Of a stretch of DNA of 6,538 bases, positions 1-6,259 are shown piece after piece. The stretch's first letter is position 1. Each line of letters opens with the position of its first letter. Origin of the DNA: Candidatus Cloacimonadota bacterium (GTDB taxonomy: Bacteria; Cloacimonadota; Cloacimonadia; Cloacimonadales; TCS61). The notes below the pieces were generated by a model. That model worked only from the letters and a program-made list of their open reading frames with translations, was not told the origin of the DNA and did no database searches. The stretch lies in NCBI GenBank assembly GCA_030596265.1, contig JAUVKM010000125.1, positions 1-6,538 of the forward strand, written 5' to 3'. The position numbers and the translations under genes are program-made.

Positions 1-71
1 AGTCCGGGGGCAAAACCTAATAAAATATAATGCATATTTACCTCAGTTTTTTCTATTTACTTTTTCTTTCC

Positions 72-95
72 GGGCAATTCGTGAATTGCCCCTAC
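72..95 (-). repeat. REP-like palindrome with 5' GTAG
   Basis: On the minus strand the tetranucleotide GTAG (95-92) is followed directly by a perfect 9-base inverted repeat, GGGCAATTC and GAATTGCCC, separated by two bases; a realistic fold is an 8-bp stem with a four-base loop. A GTAG or GGAG tetranucleotide at the 5' foot of a palindrome is the known signature of REP elements, which REP-associated tyrosine transposases (RAYTs) recognise as single-stranded hairpins. No T-tract follows on the minus strand, so it does not look like a terminator for the upstream reductase gene. Only one copy is in this window, so REP status is an inference from structure. Confidence 0.55.
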
Positions 96-98
96 GGT

Positions 99-167
99 GC
101 AGGACGTATCATTCTGATGCGTCCGAAACGTTCGGTTCAATTCGGTAACTTCCGGAATGAACTGCAA
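99..167 (+). repeat. Paired-hairpin intergenic element, copy A
   Basis: Hairpin 1 (102-124) has 10-bp arms GGACGTATCA and TGATGCGTCC with one T-G wobble and a 3-base loop. Hairpin 2 (135-162) has 11-base arms GTTCAATTCGG and CCGGAATGAAC with one A-A mismatch, one T-G wobble and a 6-base loop. A 10-base linker joins them. TGCA stands just outside both hairpins (98-101 and 163-166), so the outer edges can pair as GCA/TGC. Eight T residues follow at 168-175 on the plus strand, but no plus-strand gene lies upstream for it to terminate. The element starts about 40 bases beyond the stop codon of the reductase gene. A second copy lies at 2745-2815. Its function is unknown. Confidence 0.8.
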
Positions 168-173
168 TTTTTT

Positions 174-200
174 TTATCCATGTTTATGTACATCCGTGAC
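174..200 (+). repeat. ATCC(G/A)TG short repeat, copy 1
   Basis: The stretch reads as degenerate units of about 10 bases: TTATCCATGT (174-183), a shortened TTATGTA, and CATCCGTGAC (191-200). The same core, ATCCGTG, occurs at 6203-6209 and on the minus strand at 2723-2717, both in other spacers of this window. The repeat lies between the T-tract of paired-hairpin copy A and the end of the aldo/keto reductase gene. Its role is unknown; it is too short and degenerate to be a CRISPR array. Confidence 0.45.
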
Positions 201-205
201 ATTCA

Positions 206-1345
206 TTAATCTTTCTTTAATACTTTATGTGATTCTTTAAGCCATTTAATTATCTCGATCTGCTGCGGACATTTTGGTTCACATTCACCACATTCTATAC
301 ATCTATCCGCCCTATTATCTTCCCCTAAAAAAACACTATAGAACATTCTGCTTCGCTCTAATTCATCATACATTACGTTCATCATATACATTTCCAATAT
401 GGAAGAGATTGAAACGCCATGAGGACATGGTTCACAATATTTACAAGTCGTACAGAAGAATGGTGATCGCTTTAAATATGCCGTTCTGATAGTCTTAAAG
501 AGATCCAGTTCTTCATTGGAAAATATTCCTATTTTAGCTTTATTAGCACTTTCTATATTCTCTTTTACATGCTGTAAAATTGTCATTCCACTTAATAGAA
601 TTGGAACTTCCTTTTTATTCCAAACCCATTGCAAAGCACCATCAGAGTAGGAACGTTTCACTGGAAATCTCTGCCACATTTTCTCAATTTCCGGTGGTGG
701 AACCTTAGAAAGCTGACCACCTCGCAAGGGCTCCATTACGATAACTTCAATATTGTTTTTAATGGCATATTCAAATCCCTTCTCACCAGCCTGAAATTCT
801 AAATCCATGTAATTATACTGAAGCTGGCAGAATTCCCATTTATCATAAGCATCAACAATTTTTTTAAACACTGTGTATGAATCATGAAAGGAAAATCCGA
901 TATGTTTTATCTTTCCTTCTGCTTTTTTCTTTTCGCACCATTTAAGTACACCAAGATCTTTAATATTCTGCCACGTTTTTGCATTTAACGCATGCAGCAG
1001 ATAAAAATCAAAGTAGTCTGTTTGAAGTTTTTCCAATTGCTCATTAAATTGTTTATCAAAATCCGCTTCTTCCTTAATGAGCCAGGCGGGAAGTTTAGTT
1101 GCCAGTAATATTTTATCCCGCAAGTTCCGCTTTATTAAGTATCTCCCCACGAAATTTTCGCTTTCTCCCCCATGATAAGGTTGATCTGTATCAAGATAAT
1201 TCACACCATGTTCAATCGCATAATCAAGCATTTCTTCCGCTTTTTCTTCATTGATCATTTTCTGGTTTTTATCTAATATTGGAAAACGCATTGTACCAAA
1301 TCCTAGAATTGAAACTTCCTCTCCGCATAACTTACGATATTGCAT
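206..1345 (-). CDS. Aldo/keto reductase with C-terminal 4Fe-4S ferredoxin-type module
   Basis: This predicted cytoplasmic oxidoreductase has an N-terminal TIM-barrel aldo/keto reductase domain (about residues 1-285) and a C-terminal iron-sulfur region. The barrel keeps the family's catalytic tetrad as D52, Y57, K84 and H118, and the usual opening VSILGFGTMRFP. The C-terminal region has two cysteine groups: C298, C301, C304, C307 followed by proline, and C349, C352, C355, C359 followed by proline, the latter in the classic CIECGEC...CP form. This architecture matches the COG1453 type of predicted oxidoreductase; its natural substrate is not known, and electron transfer through the clusters is inferred. 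The length of 379 residues is normal for the fused family. The ATG is preceded by AAAGGA (1360-1355) at nine bases. It lies 31 bases after the lipoprotein gene and is probably the last gene of that cluster. Gene confidence is high; the specific reaction is unassigned. Confidence 0.95.
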   Translation of the reverse strand: MQYRKLCGEEVSILGFGTMRFPILDKNQKMINEEKAEEMLDYAIEHGVNYLDTDQPYHGGESENFVGRYLIKRNLRDKILLATKLPAWLIKEEADFDKQFNEQLEKLQTDYFDFYLLHALNAKTWQNIKDLGVLKWCEKKKAEGKIKHIGFSFHDSYTVFKKIVDAYDKWEFCQLQYNYMDLEFQAGEKGFEYAIKNNIEVIVMEPLRGGQLSKVPPPEIEKMWQRFPVKRSYSDGALQWVWNKKEVPILLSGMTILQHVKENIESANKAKIGIFSNEELDLFKTIRTAYLKRSPFFCTTCKYCEPCPHGVSISSILEMYMMNVMYDELERSRMFYSVFLGEDNRADRCIECGECEPKCPQQIEIIKWLKESHKVLKKD

Positions 1346-1376
1346 AATTTGTTATCCTTTCAATTATTAAAATCCA

Positions 1377-2099
1377 CTACCATTTTCTCATATAATTAAT
1401 GAAAACTGAACCAGAATTATCAAAAATTACACTTACTCCAACCGAAATAACATACTTTCTATTATGAAAACTGGTATAACCATGACCAATTCCCGGTATG
1501 CCGGTTCCTATTTGGAAAGTAATCATTTTGTCTTCAGAATAAATAACTTCATGTAATATTCCAACACCTCCAAAACATACTTTTCCATAAAATTTATCAT
1601 CTTCCAATGTTAATAAACTATCATTATCAACTTTTTCTAACCAATCCAAGTATGAACCGAATTCCCAGAATGTTCCGAATGATCCGTAAATTCCCCAACG
1701 ACCAGTTGTAAATGGATAGAATATCGAAGTTGAAATCTGGGGAGCTATCCCGTAATAATCATAGCTGTTCCCTGCATATTCTTCAACTGCTTCCACAGTA
1801 TGAAATCCTCTGTAGGCATCAGCATGAGCAGAAAAAGAGCACCATTTGTAAGTATAATTGATTTGATGCCGCAATTTCAGTGTTGTAGAATTTTCACCTT
1901 CATTAGATGCTCCACCCGTAGATACACTAATTCCAGAGTAATTAGTTAGTCCTTTATCACGACTGTTCAAAAGAGAAGCATGCTCAGTACCCATATATCC
2001 GTAATGATAACTGGGAATACATCCCGTAAATGCAATGATCAGAGAAGACATAAATATAAGCCGGAACCTCTTAACAAATTGAGATCTATTTTGTTTCAC
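1377..2099 (-). CDS. Hypothetical outer-membrane lipoprotein, beta-rich
   Basis: I do not recognise the family. The 240-residue protein starts with a basic n-region (KRFR), a hydrophobic stretch and a lipobox-like FTGC with C27 as the candidate lipidated cysteine, so it is probably exported and anchored by lipid. The mature part is rich in aromatic residues, glycine and alternating patterns typical of beta strands (for example around 115-145), and it ends in a tryptophan (NYMRKW). A terminal aromatic residue is common in outer-membrane barrels, though 213 mature residues would allow only a small barrel. The GTG start (2099-2097) overlaps the TGA stop of the PH-domain gene as GTGA and has AAGGGA just upstream. 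An alternative start at M17 would remove the basic n-region, so GTG is preferred. Translation is probably coupled to the upstream gene. Function is unknown. Confidence 0.85.
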   Translation of the reverse strand: MKQNRSQFVKRFRLIFMSSLIIAFTGCIPSYHYGYMGTEHASLLNSRDKGLTNYSGISVSTGGASNEGENSTTLKLRHQINYTYKWCSFSAHADAYRGFHTVEAVEEYAGNSYDYYGIAPQISTSIFYPFTTGRWGIYGSFGTFWEFGSYLDWLEKVDNDSLLTLEDDKFYGKVCFGGVGILHEVIYSEDKMITFQIGTGIPGIGHGYTSFHNRKYVISVGVSVIFDNSGSVFINYMRKW

Positions 2100-2692
2100 T
2101 GCTTCCCTTTTTCTAGAATATTACTTATTTTTTTTAACTCAATGAGAATATTTTCCAAAGCTTCTTCATTAACTACCGGAGATTTTGAAATTTCTTTGGT
2201 TGATGATCTTGCTTCACTCAGGTCTGATCTCAATTTTTCGTGCAGTTCATCCCAGTTTATAAGTCCTGAGAGTTTCCCTTCATAACCTGTAGCATTTTGG
2301 GTTTGACCAGCAGTTTGAATCTTGATCGAACCAATTCCCAGCCATCTGTCGTAAAGAGTTCTTTCCAGCATAAAATCCGTAACCATTCTAAAAGGAATAT
2401 TCTGTTTAATTTTGGTAAGAATACCTTTTTTAATAACAATTTTATCAGCTTCTATAGAATATGATAAATTCTTGATCCATAAGATCATTATTGGTGCAGC
2501 GATTATCCACATCAAGATAATTGAAATGAACACGATTCTCCATAGATAAAAAGAAAATTGTTCAAGATCAATATCACCATCTAATGCGGGAATTATATGC
2601 AAAAGGCATGCAAATAGTACAATTACGATTGATAATGATATAAGTATTAACCACGATTTTGTGATCAATTTTCTGTCTGGTCTAATTTCCAT
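2096..2692 (-). CDS. Membrane protein with bacterial PH domain (bPH2/YdbS-like)
   Basis: The 198-residue protein has two predicted membrane segments (about 13-33 and 50-73). After them comes a short domain (about 75-140) of the bacterial PH type, with the characteristic run YSIEADKIVIKKG, then IPFRMVTDFMLERTLYDRWLGIGSI split by a turn, and IKIQTAG. This layout, two helices then one PH domain, matches YdbS-like (DUF304/bPH2) proteins, whose molecular role is poorly defined. The domain would face the cytoplasm in the usual topology. The C-terminal tail (about 172-198) is charged and heptad-like, so it may form a short coiled coil; this is an addition beyond the minimal family form. A strong AGGAGG (2704-2699) stands six bases before the ATG. 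It is the first gene of a probable three-gene unit with the lipoprotein and reductase genes. Confidence 0.9.
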   Translation of the reverse strand: MEIRPDRKLITKSWLILISLSIVIVLFACLLHIIPALDGDIDLEQFSFYLWRIVFISIILMWIIAAPIMILWIKNLSYSIEADKIVIKKGILTKIKQNIPFRMVTDFMLERTLYDRWLGIGSIKIQTAGQTQNATGYEGKLSGLINWDELHEKLRSDLSEARSSTKEISKSPVVNEEALENILIELKKISNILEKGKQ

Positions 2693-2715
2693 TTTTCTCC
2701 TCCTGTTTTATTGGC

Positions 2716-2735
2716 TCACGGATTTAACGGATTAC
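2716..2735 (-). repeat. ATCCGT 10-base tandem repeat, copy 2
   Basis: On the minus strand two consecutive 10-base units can be read: GTAATCCGTT (2735-2726) and AAATCCGTGA (2725-2716). They share the ATCCGT core exactly one 10-base period apart. The repeat lies directly after the minus-strand T-tract of paired-hairpin copy B and just upstream of the PH-domain gene's ribosome binding site. The same order, hairpin pair then T-tract then ATCC repeat, is seen at 99-200 on the plus strand. Confidence 0.45.
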
Positions 2736-2770
2736 AAAAAAACCGCAGGACGTATCATTTTGATGCGTCC
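2736..2770 (-). terminator. Possible intrinsic terminator after the permease gene
   Basis: On the minus strand the first hairpin of paired-hairpin copy B (2770-2748) is followed after five bases (TGCGG) by seven T residues (2742-2736). A stem followed by a T-tract downstream of the permease stop could end transcription there. The five-base gap between stem and T-tract is longer than ideal, and on this strand the conserved wobble of the stem becomes an A-C mismatch, which weakens it. The call is therefore tentative. Confidence 0.35.
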
Positions 2771-2815
2771 GAAATATTTTAGTTCATACTGGCAGTTGCC
2801 GGTATGAACCTGCAA
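2745..2815 (+). repeat. Paired-hairpin intergenic element, copy B
   Basis: Hairpin 1 (2748-2770) has the same arms as copy A, GGACGTATCA and TGATGCGTCC, and differs only in its loop (TTT instead of TTC). Hairpin 2 (2782-2809) has 12-base arms GTTCATACTGGC and GCCGGTATGAAC with one T-G wobble and a 4-base loop. It has exactly the same 28-base length as in copy A but many base changes, most of which keep or improve pairing. The linker is 11 bases. The outer edges GCA (2745-2747) and TGC (2811-2813) can pair. The element ends three bases beyond the stop codon of the permease gene and fills most of the spacer before the PH-domain gene. Confidence 0.8.
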
Positions 2816-2818
2816 TAA

Positions 2819-3709
2819 TTATTTTATTGTAATTCTCATTTTCCTTCTTTCAATAATACTCTCTGCTGTATAGATCATCAAAGCGATCCAAACAAAAACA
2901 AATCCAATTAACTTATTAGAATCAAGTGATTCTTTGTAAAGAAAATATCCAACACAGAATTGCAGGATCGGTGCAATATATTGCAGAATACCTAATGAAG
3001 ATAAGGCAATTCTCTTTGCTGCTGATGCAAAAAATATGAGTGGTAGGGAAGTAACTACACCTGCCAGGATCAGCATTAAATTAAATTTAAGATCAATATG
3101 CCCGAATGAACCGACTCCTGAAAATTCTCTAAATAGCAGAAAAATGATAGCTGGAATGAATAGCATCATTGTATTCATTGTTAAGCCTTCGGTTGAATTT
3201 AGCGGATCTGTTTTCCGCAGTAATCCGTATATTCCAAATGTGAAAGCAAGAGACAAACCGATCCAGGGAAAGCTACCATGAACAAAAGTTAGATACAAAA
3301 CTCCAATCCCGGCAATCCCAAATGCTATCCATTGCCATTTCCTGGGACGCTCTTTTAGAAATACAACACCCAAGAAAACTGAAAATAGCGGATTTATAAA
3401 ATAACCTAAACTTGCTTCAATAATATAGTTGGAATTAACTGCCCAAATATATAACATCCAGTTTAATGCTAATAACAAAGAAGATATGGTAAAGATTATG
3501 AGTGATCTTTTATGAGAAAATACTTCTTTTAACCATTTCCAATTTTTTTTAGAAGTAAGAATAACTGATAGAAAAACAAACGACCAGATGATCCTGTGAC
3601 ACAAAATTTCGTGAGGTGGAATAAATTTGATAACTTTCCAGAAGATCGGGAAAAATCCCCAAAGAAGATACGCTCCTATTGCATATATAACACCTTTATT
3701 CAAATGCAC
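2819..3709 (-). CDS. rarD: RarD-type EamA/DMT-superfamily permease
   Basis: This is an inner-membrane transporter of the drug/metabolite transporter superfamily with about ten hydrophobic helices and two EamA halves. It matches RarD closely along its length: AYLLWGFFPIFWK near the start, the HRIIWSF motif (38-44), LNWMLYIWAVN (82-92), EASLGYFINPL (98-108), GLLRK (162-166), and SLGILQYIAPILQF (238-251). The length of 296 residues is normal. RarD was named for a chloramphenicol-sensitivity phenotype in Pseudomonas, but its true substrate is not established, so none is assigned here. The frame opens with GTG at 3709, yet the only good ribosome binding site touches that codon; TTG at 3703 is better placed and would give 294 residues beginning MNKGVIYAIG. 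It lies three bases after the propeller/MORN-like gene, so the two are probably cotranscribed. Confidence 0.93.
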   Translation of the reverse strand: MHLNKGVIYAIGAYLLWGFFPIFWKVIKFIPPHEILCHRIIWSFVFLSVILTSKKNWKWLKEVFSHKRSLIIFTISSLLLALNWMLYIWAVNSNYIIEASLGYFINPLFSVFLGVVFLKERPRKWQWIAFGIAGIGVLYLTFVHGSFPWIGLSLAFTFGIYGLLRKTDPLNSTEGLTMNTMMLFIPAIIFLLFREFSGVGSFGHIDLKFNLMLILAGVVTSLPLIFFASAAKRIALSSLGILQYIAPILQFCVGYFLYKESLDSNKLIGFVFVWIALMIYTAESIIERRKMRITIK

Positions 3710-3714
3710 TCCCT
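3709..3714 (-). promoter_or_regulatory. Ribosome binding site that favours a TTG start for the permease
   Basis: AGGGAG on the minus strand (3714-3709) overlaps the TAG stop of the propeller/MORN-like gene and shares its final G with the GTG codon at 3709-3707. A site with no spacing cannot serve GTG well. It stands five bases before TTG at 3703-3701, an ideal distance. The overlap with the upstream stop suggests termination and reinitiation coupling between the two genes. Confidence 0.5.
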
Positions 3715-6127
3715 ATTCTTTTCCTAAATCATTTTGGTATTTTTGCCACCATTTCTTGTAATATTTTACTTTGGGATTGAAATCAGTTACTGAGCATTCT
3801 GTTGGTGGATATTTCCCATCAATAAAACCTTGCAGCATATACATCGCTTCACGACCTATCGTGGACATTTTTCCTACTGGCCAATCTGTACTTTCTGTTG
3901 ATACCACTGGAGCACACTCTTTTTCAGATTCGATCTTATTCATTAATAACTCAAGAAATTGTTTTAATTTCCAATTACTCGAAGAAATTGGAAATACTAA
4001 AACTGGTTTCATTTCACTACTTTTGAGTATCTGTAAAAAATTACCTGGATTAATTTTTTGTAAATTAACTGGTTTTAAATATGTTCCTTTTTCGTAATAT
4101 CTTATTCCAACTTGTTTCTCTTTGGCATACACTTTCCAAATTCCTTCACGTCTACCTTTAATATATTTTCCTTCATGTTTACTATTAATTAGTGTTTCTA
4201 CTTCTCTTCTTCTTTCTACTATATTTTTTACTATAGATGTACTACGAATTATCTCCATCCAATAACCTTCTTTCAAGTTATTCTTATAATTTCCCATACT
4301 AAGCAGAACATCATTTTTCCAAGTTTGTTCTATTCCATTCTTCGTTCCATTTATATACTCTCTTTCAGTTTTAAGATTTCCTTTATAGCCATATATCTTT
4401 ATCTTTCCATCTGCATAGACACTTGGGAACTCAGAGATCATTTTTCCCTCAAATTGCAGTATTCCATTCATGAAGTAATCACGTACAAAGCCTTGCGGAA
4501 CTCCATCATCATATTCAGCATTACGATAATAAAATGCATCCTCCATTGAATCCAATGATTTGAATCTATTATCCATAAATGTAATCCACAATCCTTGTTT
4601 ATTACCATTTTCATTTAATTTATTTGGTTGTTTAATTACAGTTGGGAATTCCTCTGTATAAATTGGTTTTCCATCAGGATTAAAATAATTCCATTCACCT
4701 ACACTTTTCCCATTTACATAGTCTATTTCAACATAACAACCATTGTTGAAAGATTCAAACCAAATACCAACCTTAGTGTTATTTTTGTATTCTCCCTTTT
4801 CTTGTAGTTTATTCTCTGAATTATATTTTAGCCAAATACCCTCTTTCAAGTTATTTTCATATTCTGCTACTATTTTCACTACTCCATTCTTATAATGTTC
4901 AACATAATGACCATCTTTGATGCCGTCTTTATACTCTGTTATCCTTTCAACTGAACCATTATCAAAATAAGTTGTCCAAGTCCCAACTTTTTTCCCGGAT
5001 ATGAAATCTCCCTCCATAATAATTTGAACATTTTTATTCTTATATATCCAATGTCCTTCTTCTTGATAATTCACTAAATTACCCTCCCCTTTATGATAGG
5101 AGTACTGAATATCCTTATACTGTCCCTCATCGGTAATCCCTTTTGGAATATTTTCTTTTATGTAATTAATATATGAGCGCTTTTCATTCTTGTATTTATA
5201 TAATCCCTTGCTTGTATAAAGAAATACTTCTTTTGATGAATTCTGATATAATTGGATAGGCCAAGTATAATTAAAAACACTTTTAATAGTAGCCTTTCCA
5301 TCCTTAATACAAATCAAATCCATTTCCTCTTCTTCCTCTCCAATAGTCTGAATAGCCCATATAGTATTATTTTCATCTATAATAAAATCTGAAAGGTATA
5401 AAATACTATATGTAAGTTCCGAAAAATCGGTTTTTATTTTCTTTAAAGTATTATTTTCAATTTTATAGAAAGAACTTTTTGAATGCAACCAAACAACGTC
5501 ATCAGCAGTGATATAAATATTACTGCTCGGGCCATCATGTTTAGACCATATTCCATCAGCAAAGCGAAATATAGAACGTCCTCCAGAAAACCAAACTTTA
5601 TCTAATTGATCTATAGCAACATCCAATAGAGGAAATTGAAGTATTGAAGTATTCCCTTTTGTATACTCTTCCCATTTCTGATTATTAAGTGAATATATTG
5701 CATTCCTAGTAATAAACCATTTTCTTCCAGAAGGAGCAATTGCAGCCTTAATCATCTCATTACTTTTTAAAATTGTATTTGTTTGATTATAAATGTACCA
5801 TTCAGAATCTTGAAAATGGGTTATCCCATTGTTTTGTAGTATAACCCAAATTGAATTTGGATTTTCTATCAATATCTGTTTAAAATCGTATTTTGAATTT
5901 GTAGTATCTGAATTTGTGAAATAGTAATTTGTTTGTTTTGTTTTCGAATTATAATGGATTAATCCACATTTTGTTCCTAACCAATGGTTTCCATTAACTT
6001 CTGCATAAGCAGTTATGTATTGTTTTTTGAAATATGCAGCCCATTTATTATTTCTAGCCAAAAGTACATTTGGAAGAATCATTAATATACAACCAATTAA
6101 TATTATAATTTTTGACTTCATTTTCAC
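3713..6127 (-). CDS. Exported seven-bladed propeller plus MORN/YwqK-like repeat protein
   Basis: The 804-residue protein begins with a signal peptide (KMKSK, then a hydrophobic core, probable cleavage after A24), so it acts outside the cytoplasm. Residues 38 to about 320 contain seven degenerate blades, each with a hydrophobic or W-containing strand followed by a short loop, near 45, 89, 132, 174, 207, 251 and 296. The spacing of about 43 residues resembles two-component-regulator propeller (Reg_prop) repeats. Residues 357-683 hold about twelve repeats of the form G-x-W...Y..NG....E-Y-x-N-G-x-K; the first four are 24 residues each, as in MORN/YwqK-type repeats. Residues 692-804 form a separate domain with TIGREAMYMLQGF, a W-W pair (793-794) and two cysteines (C738, C778) that could form a disulfide. 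No transmembrane segment, kinase or DNA-binding domain follows, so it is not a hybrid sensor. YwqK-family names invoke an antitoxin, but nothing here supports that role. Function is unknown; binding or scaffolding at the envelope is a guess. Confidence 0.9.
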   Translation of the reverse strand: MKMKSKIIILIGCILMILPNVLLARNNKWAAYFKKQYITAYAEVNGNHWLGTKCGLIHYNSKTKQTNYYFTNSDTTNSKYDFKQILIENPNSIWVILQNNGITHFQDSEWYIYNQTNTILKSNEMIKAAIAPSGRKWFITRNAIYSLNNQKWEEYTKGNTSILQFPLLDVAIDQLDKVWFSGGRSIFRFADGIWSKHDGPSSNIYITADDVVWLHSKSSFYKIENNTLKKIKTDFSELTYSILYLSDFIIDENNTIWAIQTIGEEEEEMDLICIKDGKATIKSVFNYTWPIQLYQNSSKEVFLYTSKGLYKYKNEKRSYINYIKENIPKGITDEGQYKDIQYSYHKGEGNLVNYQEEGHWIYKNKNVQIIMEGDFISGKKVGTWTTYFDNGSVERITEYKDGIKDGHYVEHYKNGVVKIVAEYENNLKEGIWLKYNSENKLQEKGEYKNNTKVGIWFESFNNGCYVEIDYVNGKSVGEWNYFNPDGKPIYTEEFPTVIKQPNKLNENGNKQGLWITFMDNRFKSLDSMEDAFYYRNAEYDDGVPQGFVRDYFMNGILQFEGKMISEFPSVYADGKIKIYGYKGNLKTEREYINGTKNGIEQTWKNDVLLSMGNYKNNLKEGYWMEIIRSTSIVKNIVERRREVETLINSKHEGKYIKGRREGIWKVYAKEKQVGIRYYEKGTYLKPVNLQKINPGNFLQILKSSEMKPVLVFPISSSNWKLKQFLELLMNKIESEKECAPVVSTESTDWPVGKMSTIGREAMYMLQGFIDGKYPPTECSVTDFNPKVKYYKKWWQKYQNDLGKE

Positions 6128-6200: not shown

Positions 6201-6230
6201 TTATCCGTGCTTATCTGCGCATATCCATGA
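6201..6230 (+). repeat. ATCCGTG 10-base tandem repeat, copy 3
   Basis: Three consecutive units of exactly 10 bases can be read: TTATCCGTGC (6201-6210), TTATCTGCGC (6211-6220) and ATATCCATGA (6221-6230). They share a T-A-T-C core in phase. The repeat lies in the 132-base spacer between the VOC gene and the propeller/MORN-like gene, without a hairpin pair beside it. The rest of that spacer is AT-rich; a TATTATACA stretch (6159-6151, minus strand) could hold a -10 box, but no convincing -35 partner is visible. Confidence 0.5.
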
Positions 6231-6259
6231 GCTACTATTCTGAAACTATTAGAATGATA

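Follow-up and report, generated by a model that had tools for sequence, protein, structure and literature searches.

Repetitive extragenic palindromes (REPs) lie between unidirectional and convergent open reading frames (ORFs) (PMC3733652) and usually number more than 100 copies per genome (PMC2817692). Comparisons made here with these two papers, and with PMC3116915 and PMC6006769, refer to the excerpts of them that were available. The 6,538-nucleotide stretch analysed here (the window; contig JAUVKM010000125.1 of a Candidatus Cloacimonadota bacterium) contains two copies of a two-hairpin intergenic element, which we consider on balance to be a short non-autonomous DNA repeat of REP type, with two palindromic units placed head to head. 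Like the GTAG- and CGTC-tagged REP dimers (PMC3733652), it is built from palindromic units with short tags at the outer ends and partners of different stem, and it shares their unidirectional or convergent location. It differs from them in that its tag is GCAG, its copies are few, its orientation follows transcription, and no cognate RAYT was found; the string GCAG has no occurrence in the text of PMC3733652. It has in common with the REPINs of Pseudomonas fluorescens (PMC3116915) an inverted doublet unit and a spacer with compensatory changes, but in REPINs the two ends are inverted 16-mers that match each other, whereas the stems of the element differ and each folds alone.

The two copies and their parts are as follows, in window positions.

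98..166, + strand: copy A of the element (R1 match, 66 bits, E 4.5e-12)
102..124, + strand: hairpin 1 of copy A, GGACGTATCA-TTC-TGATGCGTCC, with T.G at pair 6 (sequence and fold)
125..134, + strand: spacer of copy A, GAAACGTTCG
135..162, + strand: hairpin 2 of copy A, long class, with an A-A mismatch that is common in the family (sequence)
2744..2814, + strand: copy B of the element (R1 match, 76.9 bits, E 1.6e-14)
2748..2770, + strand: hairpin 1 of copy B (sequence and fold)
2782..2809, + strand: hairpin 2 of copy B, long class, with a perfect outer stem that is unusual in the family (sequence and fold)

An earlier sequence-only reading of the window had placed the copies at 99-167 and 2745-2815. 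The locations are correct, but in the family alignment the ends lie one base to the left (98-166, 2744-2814). Its comparison of the copies is accurate: hairpin 1 is nearly identical in both (102-124 versus 2748-2770), with one loop base different, and the 28-base hairpin 2 differs at exactly nine positions (6, 7, 8, 9, 12, 14, 15, 17 and 22). From copy A to copy B, pair 7/22 goes from T-A to A-T, 8/21 from T-G to C-G, 9/20 from C-G to T-G, 6/23 from A-A to T-A and 12/17 from T-T to C-G, as had been described. The hairpin-1 24-mer, with at most three mismatches, has two matches in the window against a mean of 0.00 in 200 shuffles, so that its recurrence is not a matter of chance. On the + strand the fold z is -5.5 for copy A and -6.8 for copy B (0/200 shuffles as good for either), and on the - strand -2.0 for copy A (7/200 as good) and -5.8 for copy B (0/200). 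Neither copy matched Rfam at E<=1, the single listed match lying elsewhere (345-389), and none of the papers listed by searches of a CC-licensed library was recognised as a description of the element.

When genome contigs were scanned for the pattern AGGACGNATCANNNTGATNCGTCC, 33 stretches matched. Four of these (L018, L020, L030, L032) were set apart, being palindromes alone from other bacteria or, for L020, truncated where the stretch ends. The remaining 29 carry the element, which is interrupted by a contig end in L013, damaged in L014, L021 and L025, and otherwise whole. The records of the 29 are titled Cloacimonadota, Cloacimonadales, Tenebribacter, Armatimonadetes or Armatimonadota; those with an Armatimonad title are three in number (L022, L024, L029) and belong to G011 and G012, both listed within the phylum of G001. 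A covariance model was made from 25 copies (alignment A2), leaving out the bare, cut-off and damaged stretches just named, and also L004, L010, L015 and L016. It gave 3-16 matches per genome in 15 metagenome-assembled genomes (MAGs) at E<=0.01, opposite-strand duplicates included; only 150 candidates were scored per genome in these drafts, so the counts may miss copies. Under stricter filters, matches at E<=1e-6 were found in 17 of 124 genomes of the phylum. Copies counted in the relatives' genomes exclude the possibility, which the sequence-only reading had named as a refutation, that only two exist; its proposal of a two-hairpin repeat family is supported, and the family has no Rfam match. 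A viral origin was rejected, since the hairpin-1 pattern had no match among the contigs of the viral collection. For further analysis, the 107 rows of model matches were reduced to 88 copies by removing duplicate places, matches on the opposite strand, and the half matches of L014 and L148. This set is drawn mainly from the stronger matches, the weaker ones being mostly left out.

Each half of the element consists of GCAG, a stem-loop and GAAAY. The outer head GCAG is present at the left end in 62 of 79 full-length copies and at the right end, on the other strand, in 53 of 79; a GTAG head is rare (2 copies at the left, 3 at the right). The spacer of the family is a near palindrome, RAAAYRTTWC, and AA(N)YRTT is present in 55 of the 79. 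The element is a head-to-head pair of inverted REP-like units with the heads outside and unlike stems, that is, it has a heterodimer layout. The two sides have similar stems in L134, L139, L143 and L153, which the model matches on both strands, as it does more weakly for some ordinary copies. Hairpin 2 was sorted into classes, mainly by length: in 79 copies there are 49 short, 25 long, 4 of CTCCGAT type and 1 other. Integron attC core sites have the form RYYYAAC/GTTRRRY, and the ends of the element, by eye GCAGG...CCTGC, are unlike them. Target-site duplication is near the shuffled level for k=2 to 5 (for k=2, 11 observed versus 10.8 expected). Another candidate is a miniature DDE-transposon element whose inverted ends read GCAGG; it would have short inverted ends, be dispersed, and leave occupied and empty sites, all of which are seen. 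We regard this origin as scarcely credible, given that target-site duplication is not clearly above shuffles and the shared ends comprise only about five bases.

Copy A lies at an aldo/keto reductase (AKR)-PrsW gene junction and copy B between genes for EamA and bPH proteins, each copy being antisense to both neighbours:

1..34, - strand: first codons of a PrsW-type gene, truncated at the window edge; downstream of copy A in the mRNA sense
206..1345, - strand: aldo/keto reductase with a 4Fe-4S domain (PF00248, 4.8e-39); upstream gene of copy A
2096..2692, - strand: bPH-domain protein (PF03703, 5.2e-13); downstream gene of copy B
2819..3709, - strand: EamA-family transporter (PF00892, 1.3e-26); upstream gene of copy B

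The start at 1..34, whose reverse complement is by eye ATGCATTAT after GAGGTAAAT, resembles the gene starts of family 7 in the comparison of orthologous junctions, and the orthologue in G002 is PrsW (PF13367).

The wider set shows the same placement. Gene calls were made with our own ORF finder rather than taken from annotation. Two of the 88 copies are wholly inside predicted ORFs (at least 80 aa), of 94 and 96 aa, which are probably spurious; the element is otherwise intergenic. The contexts in this first set are 70 tandem, 9 convergent and 4 divergent, which is like the rule given for REPs (PMC3733652) and favours a REP-type repeat. Within tandem pairs, 65 copies are antisense and 5 sense (63 versus 5 without the two in-ORF copies), so that what appears in the mRNA is mostly the reverse complement of the element's + (reader's) strand; counted by distinct junction there are 50 antisense and 4 sense (binomial p 4e-11). 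Of the five sense cases, L117 and L138 are orthologous to each other, L141 and L153 have atypical stems, and L152 is degraded. A second set, of 20 places, had 9 antisense and 4 sense cases, with 3 in convergent, 3 in divergent and 1 in undefined context. By a sorting made post hoc, its sense cases are L219 (the place of L195, with flanks matching those of L152), L222 (a GGTTC-type stem), and L231 and L236, which are without canonical hairpin 1. Replication strand is not supported as the cause of the orientation: GC skew at third codon positions points both ways at convergent copies (with it L107 and L129; against it L110, L116, L130, L150 and L151; L149 nearly equal and L147 one-sided). Negative skew is also seen in 20 of the 65 tandem entries. 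The evidence comes from short loci, however, some of them represented by more than one entry.

An orientation that tracks transcription at 65:5 is what might be seen if the element were a cis-acting structured RNA, stabilising the upstream transcript or tuning translation of the next gene, with hairpin 2, hairpin 1 and the ribosome-binding site of the next gene following each other in the mRNA. Copies are also close to gene ends, at medians of 47 bases past the upstream stop and 37 ahead of the next start; within 25 bases, GGAG or AGGA follows the element in 22 of 79 copies and precedes it in 12 of 79; and the - strand of copy B folds well, as noted above. We consider such an RNA unlikely all the same. 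The flanking genes examined are unrelated in function, and the pairing and inheritance results described below also speak against it. As regards an intrinsic or bidirectional terminator, there are strong hairpins behind genes, and a run of Ts comes after both window copies, eight on the + strand for copy A and seven on the - strand for copy B. This explanation is very improbable: T5 occurs within 14 bases past the element in just 6 (mRNA sense) and 8 (antisense) of 79 copies, and the majority of copies are inside tandem gene runs.

The stems change in pairs. Hairpin 1 is mainly GGACG/CGTCC, with variants GGTCG/CGACC, GGGCG/CGCCC and GGATG/CATCC. In the 84 of 88 copies usable for this test (54 distinct), 28 cells are changed on both sides, compared to a shuffled mean of 6.5 (0/1000 shuffles), and without the GGTTC-type stems there are 9 versus 3.3 (3/1000 shuffles); the shuffles leave shared ancestry in. 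No covariation measure was above shuffles in the 25-copy alignment A2; the pattern search had already fixed most of hairpin 1. A strong covariation score on alignment A3 was set aside as inflated, since that alignment was fitted to the structure and includes opposite-strand matches and re-fetched places; the wobble counts and the 84-copy test were therefore relied on instead. The paired changes thus count for a cis-acting RNA only with reservations over A3 and shared ancestry. They are also found in hairpin 1, and so extend beyond hairpin 2, to which the sequence-only reading had limited them.

T.G occupies pair 6 of hairpin 1 in 75 of the 84 usable copies, so that on the mRNA strand hairpin 1 has a C-A mismatch there, a point against an RNA function. 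Outside this pair, non-Watson-Crick cells in hairpin 1 are A.C 28, G.T 26 and others 12, and in the outer arm of hairpin 2, where the arms were placed by best fit and could be used in 75 copies but not in 13, A.C 15 and G.T 14. The totals, 43 versus 40 (p 0.83), favour neither strand, which indicates that an RNA fold is not what is visibly maintained. Hairpin 2 also shows paired changes, but much of its difference between copies is class switching and not covariation pair by pair. The improved pairing in copy B is special to that copy: among 54 parsable copies, the pair that changes from A-A to T-A is A-A 28 times, A-T 21 times and T-A once, and a mismatch is therefore common in the family at this position.

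Many copies occupy the same gene junctions across species, and some are degraded. Inheritance was followed in 27 orthologous pairs, which were hand-picked and share members. Their mean identity is 0.86 (aligned letters only, gaps ignored), compared to 0.81 for random pairs of copies between genomes and about 0.83 for the 600-base flanks, coding and non-coding together. Orthologous copies therefore diverge about as much as their flanks, and are hardly more conserved than them, which is a further point against a cis-acting RNA. The lack of target duplication, the rarity of T-runs, the absence of a strand bias in wobbles and this divergence mean that a transposed, decaying DNA repeat fits better than a conserved RNA.

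The class of hairpin 2 differs in 10 of the 27 pairs (9 sites). One change is between genomes whose flanks are 94-96% identical (L125/L136), and one involves a degraded hairpin 2 (L149/L151); changes of apex class at a fixed site also include L104/L137 and the window copy at 2744 with L135:6062. An apex change at a given site may reflect an exchange of arms between copies.

Orthologous junctions occur with and without the element. At the junction of copy A it is also present in G002 and G006, and the AKR-PrsW gap is 98 bases in G006 and 135 in G002 but 3 bases in G009. At the junction of copy B the orthologous site in G009 also has it, with an EamA-bPH gap of 126 or 95 bases (window and G009), whereas in G002, G006, G007 and G014 the EamA and bPH ORFs overlap and have no copy. 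These empty sites favour a REP-type repeat. Copies occupy differing junctions within an operon conserved across 12 genomes, the window among them, and 13 of 24 junctions with a copy are points of gene gain or loss, versus 16 of 72 without (p 0.005). Under two other definitions of turnover p is 0.07 and 0.10, and all the definitions were set after the map was seen; the association is suggestive only. In G003, G007, G011, G012 and G014, single genes are enclosed by pairs of parallel copies, of which some are partial. These two observations, together with class switching in hairpin 2, would suit a recombination junction, in which direct-repeat copies flank gene modules and exchange deletes or swaps a module, leaving one copy. 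This is an improbable account, because the p values depend on definitions made post hoc, overlapping gene pairs leave no room for either event, and no excised module was seen. Equally doubtful is a combined proposal, namely that a GCAG-headed heterodimer, locked in orientation on entry or survival, bounds exchangeable operon gene modules as a direct repeat and swaps its hairpin-2 apex.

Genes that might move the element were sought with Y1_Tnp, which had 68 matches in 14 of 15 MAGs. The RAYT/TnpA-REP REPtrons (PMC2817692, PMC6006769) have as substrate a hairpin with a tetranucleotide foot, as is present here, and in these genomes some Y1_Tnp genes have other, REP-like palindromes beside them, which counts in favour of a REP-type repeat. 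Canonical copies are near two of the 68 matches, on one side only (two copies at G014:C77, and one 1.46 kb away at G008:C285); a third copy is 2.4 kb from a Y1_Tnp gene (L191), and a weak model match (L174, E 0.006) is the hairpin of that RAYT itself. The element as cognate of these RAYTs was rejected: beside 13 Y1_Tnp loci the hairpins, where there are any, are other palindromes, except for the copies near G014:C77 and G008:C285.

The case for a REP-type repeat comes from a family scattered through some members of one phylum, a GCAG head on either outer end, a near-palindromic spacer, the nearly symmetric variants matched on both strands, wobbles that favour neither strand and the absence of target duplication beyond shuffles, in addition to the placement and empty sites above. 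Several results weigh against it. None of the 68 Y1_Tnp matches is bracketed by the element, within about 1.2-1.5 kb per side or to the contig end in these incomplete MAGs, and G006 has 14 element matches and no Y1_Tnp match. The head is GCAG and not GTAG/GTGG or CGTC, there are 3-16 matches per draft genome compared to the usual number for REPs (PMC2817692), strict orientation is not among the REP features in the excerpts of PMC3733652, PMC3116915, PMC2817692 and PMC6006769, and no transposition event was seen. What the element shares with REPs is therefore dispersed intergenic palindromic units and an inverted head-to-head doublet; a predominant GTAG/GTGG/CGTC foot, a bracketed cognate RAYT and more than 100 copies per genome were not found. 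It is accordingly filed as REP-like, and not as a member of a REP family, since it matches REP dimers in layout and placing but brackets no Y1_Tnp match within the stretches scanned.

As a REP-type repeat, the element would be copied, probably as single-stranded DNA, by a Y1/HUH-type transposase, which may recognise the hairpin with T.G at pair 6 plus the GCAG foot. The insertion target would be the gaps behind genes in operons. The orientation could become locked if the element inserts into the non-template strand that transcription leaves exposed, or alternatively if copies in the other orientation are lost.

The element represents a new repeat family for a phylum known here only from MAGs, and its GCAG head is not among the REP tags in the excerpts of the four papers. 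The orientation bias provides a sharp test of whether transcription aims small repeats mobilised as single strands, and orthologous junctions with and without a copy allow insertion, decay and arm exchange to be dated.

Other repeats and genes were observed at the same places. A GTAG-type REP hairpin (window 70-95; reverse complement GTAGGGGCAATTCACGAATTGCCC) is directly beside copy A. The Y1_Tnp genes of L167 and L171 have similar hairpins next to them as inverted pairs, and another such hairpin adjoins a copy at L132:5188 (G007); the GTAG-hairpin pattern had 18 matches in 6 of 8 MAGs searched (some being both strands of one place), and 0 for the reversed control. At the junction that holds copy B in the window, G008 has a Y1_Tnp gene (L182:1707-2231) between EamA and bPH, apparently within the bPH start. 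A second intergenic repeat, by eye GCTCACGGAT...ATCCGTGAGC, is found at 2713-2733 and about 6201-6234 in the window and at many other junctions. It borders or interrupts the element in several genomes, and a fused half-element is common to G010 and G012. Finally, window positions 3713-6127 encode an 804-aa protein with a weak MORN-repeat match below the Pfam cut-off, which among the mapped loci has the same operon position only in G009.

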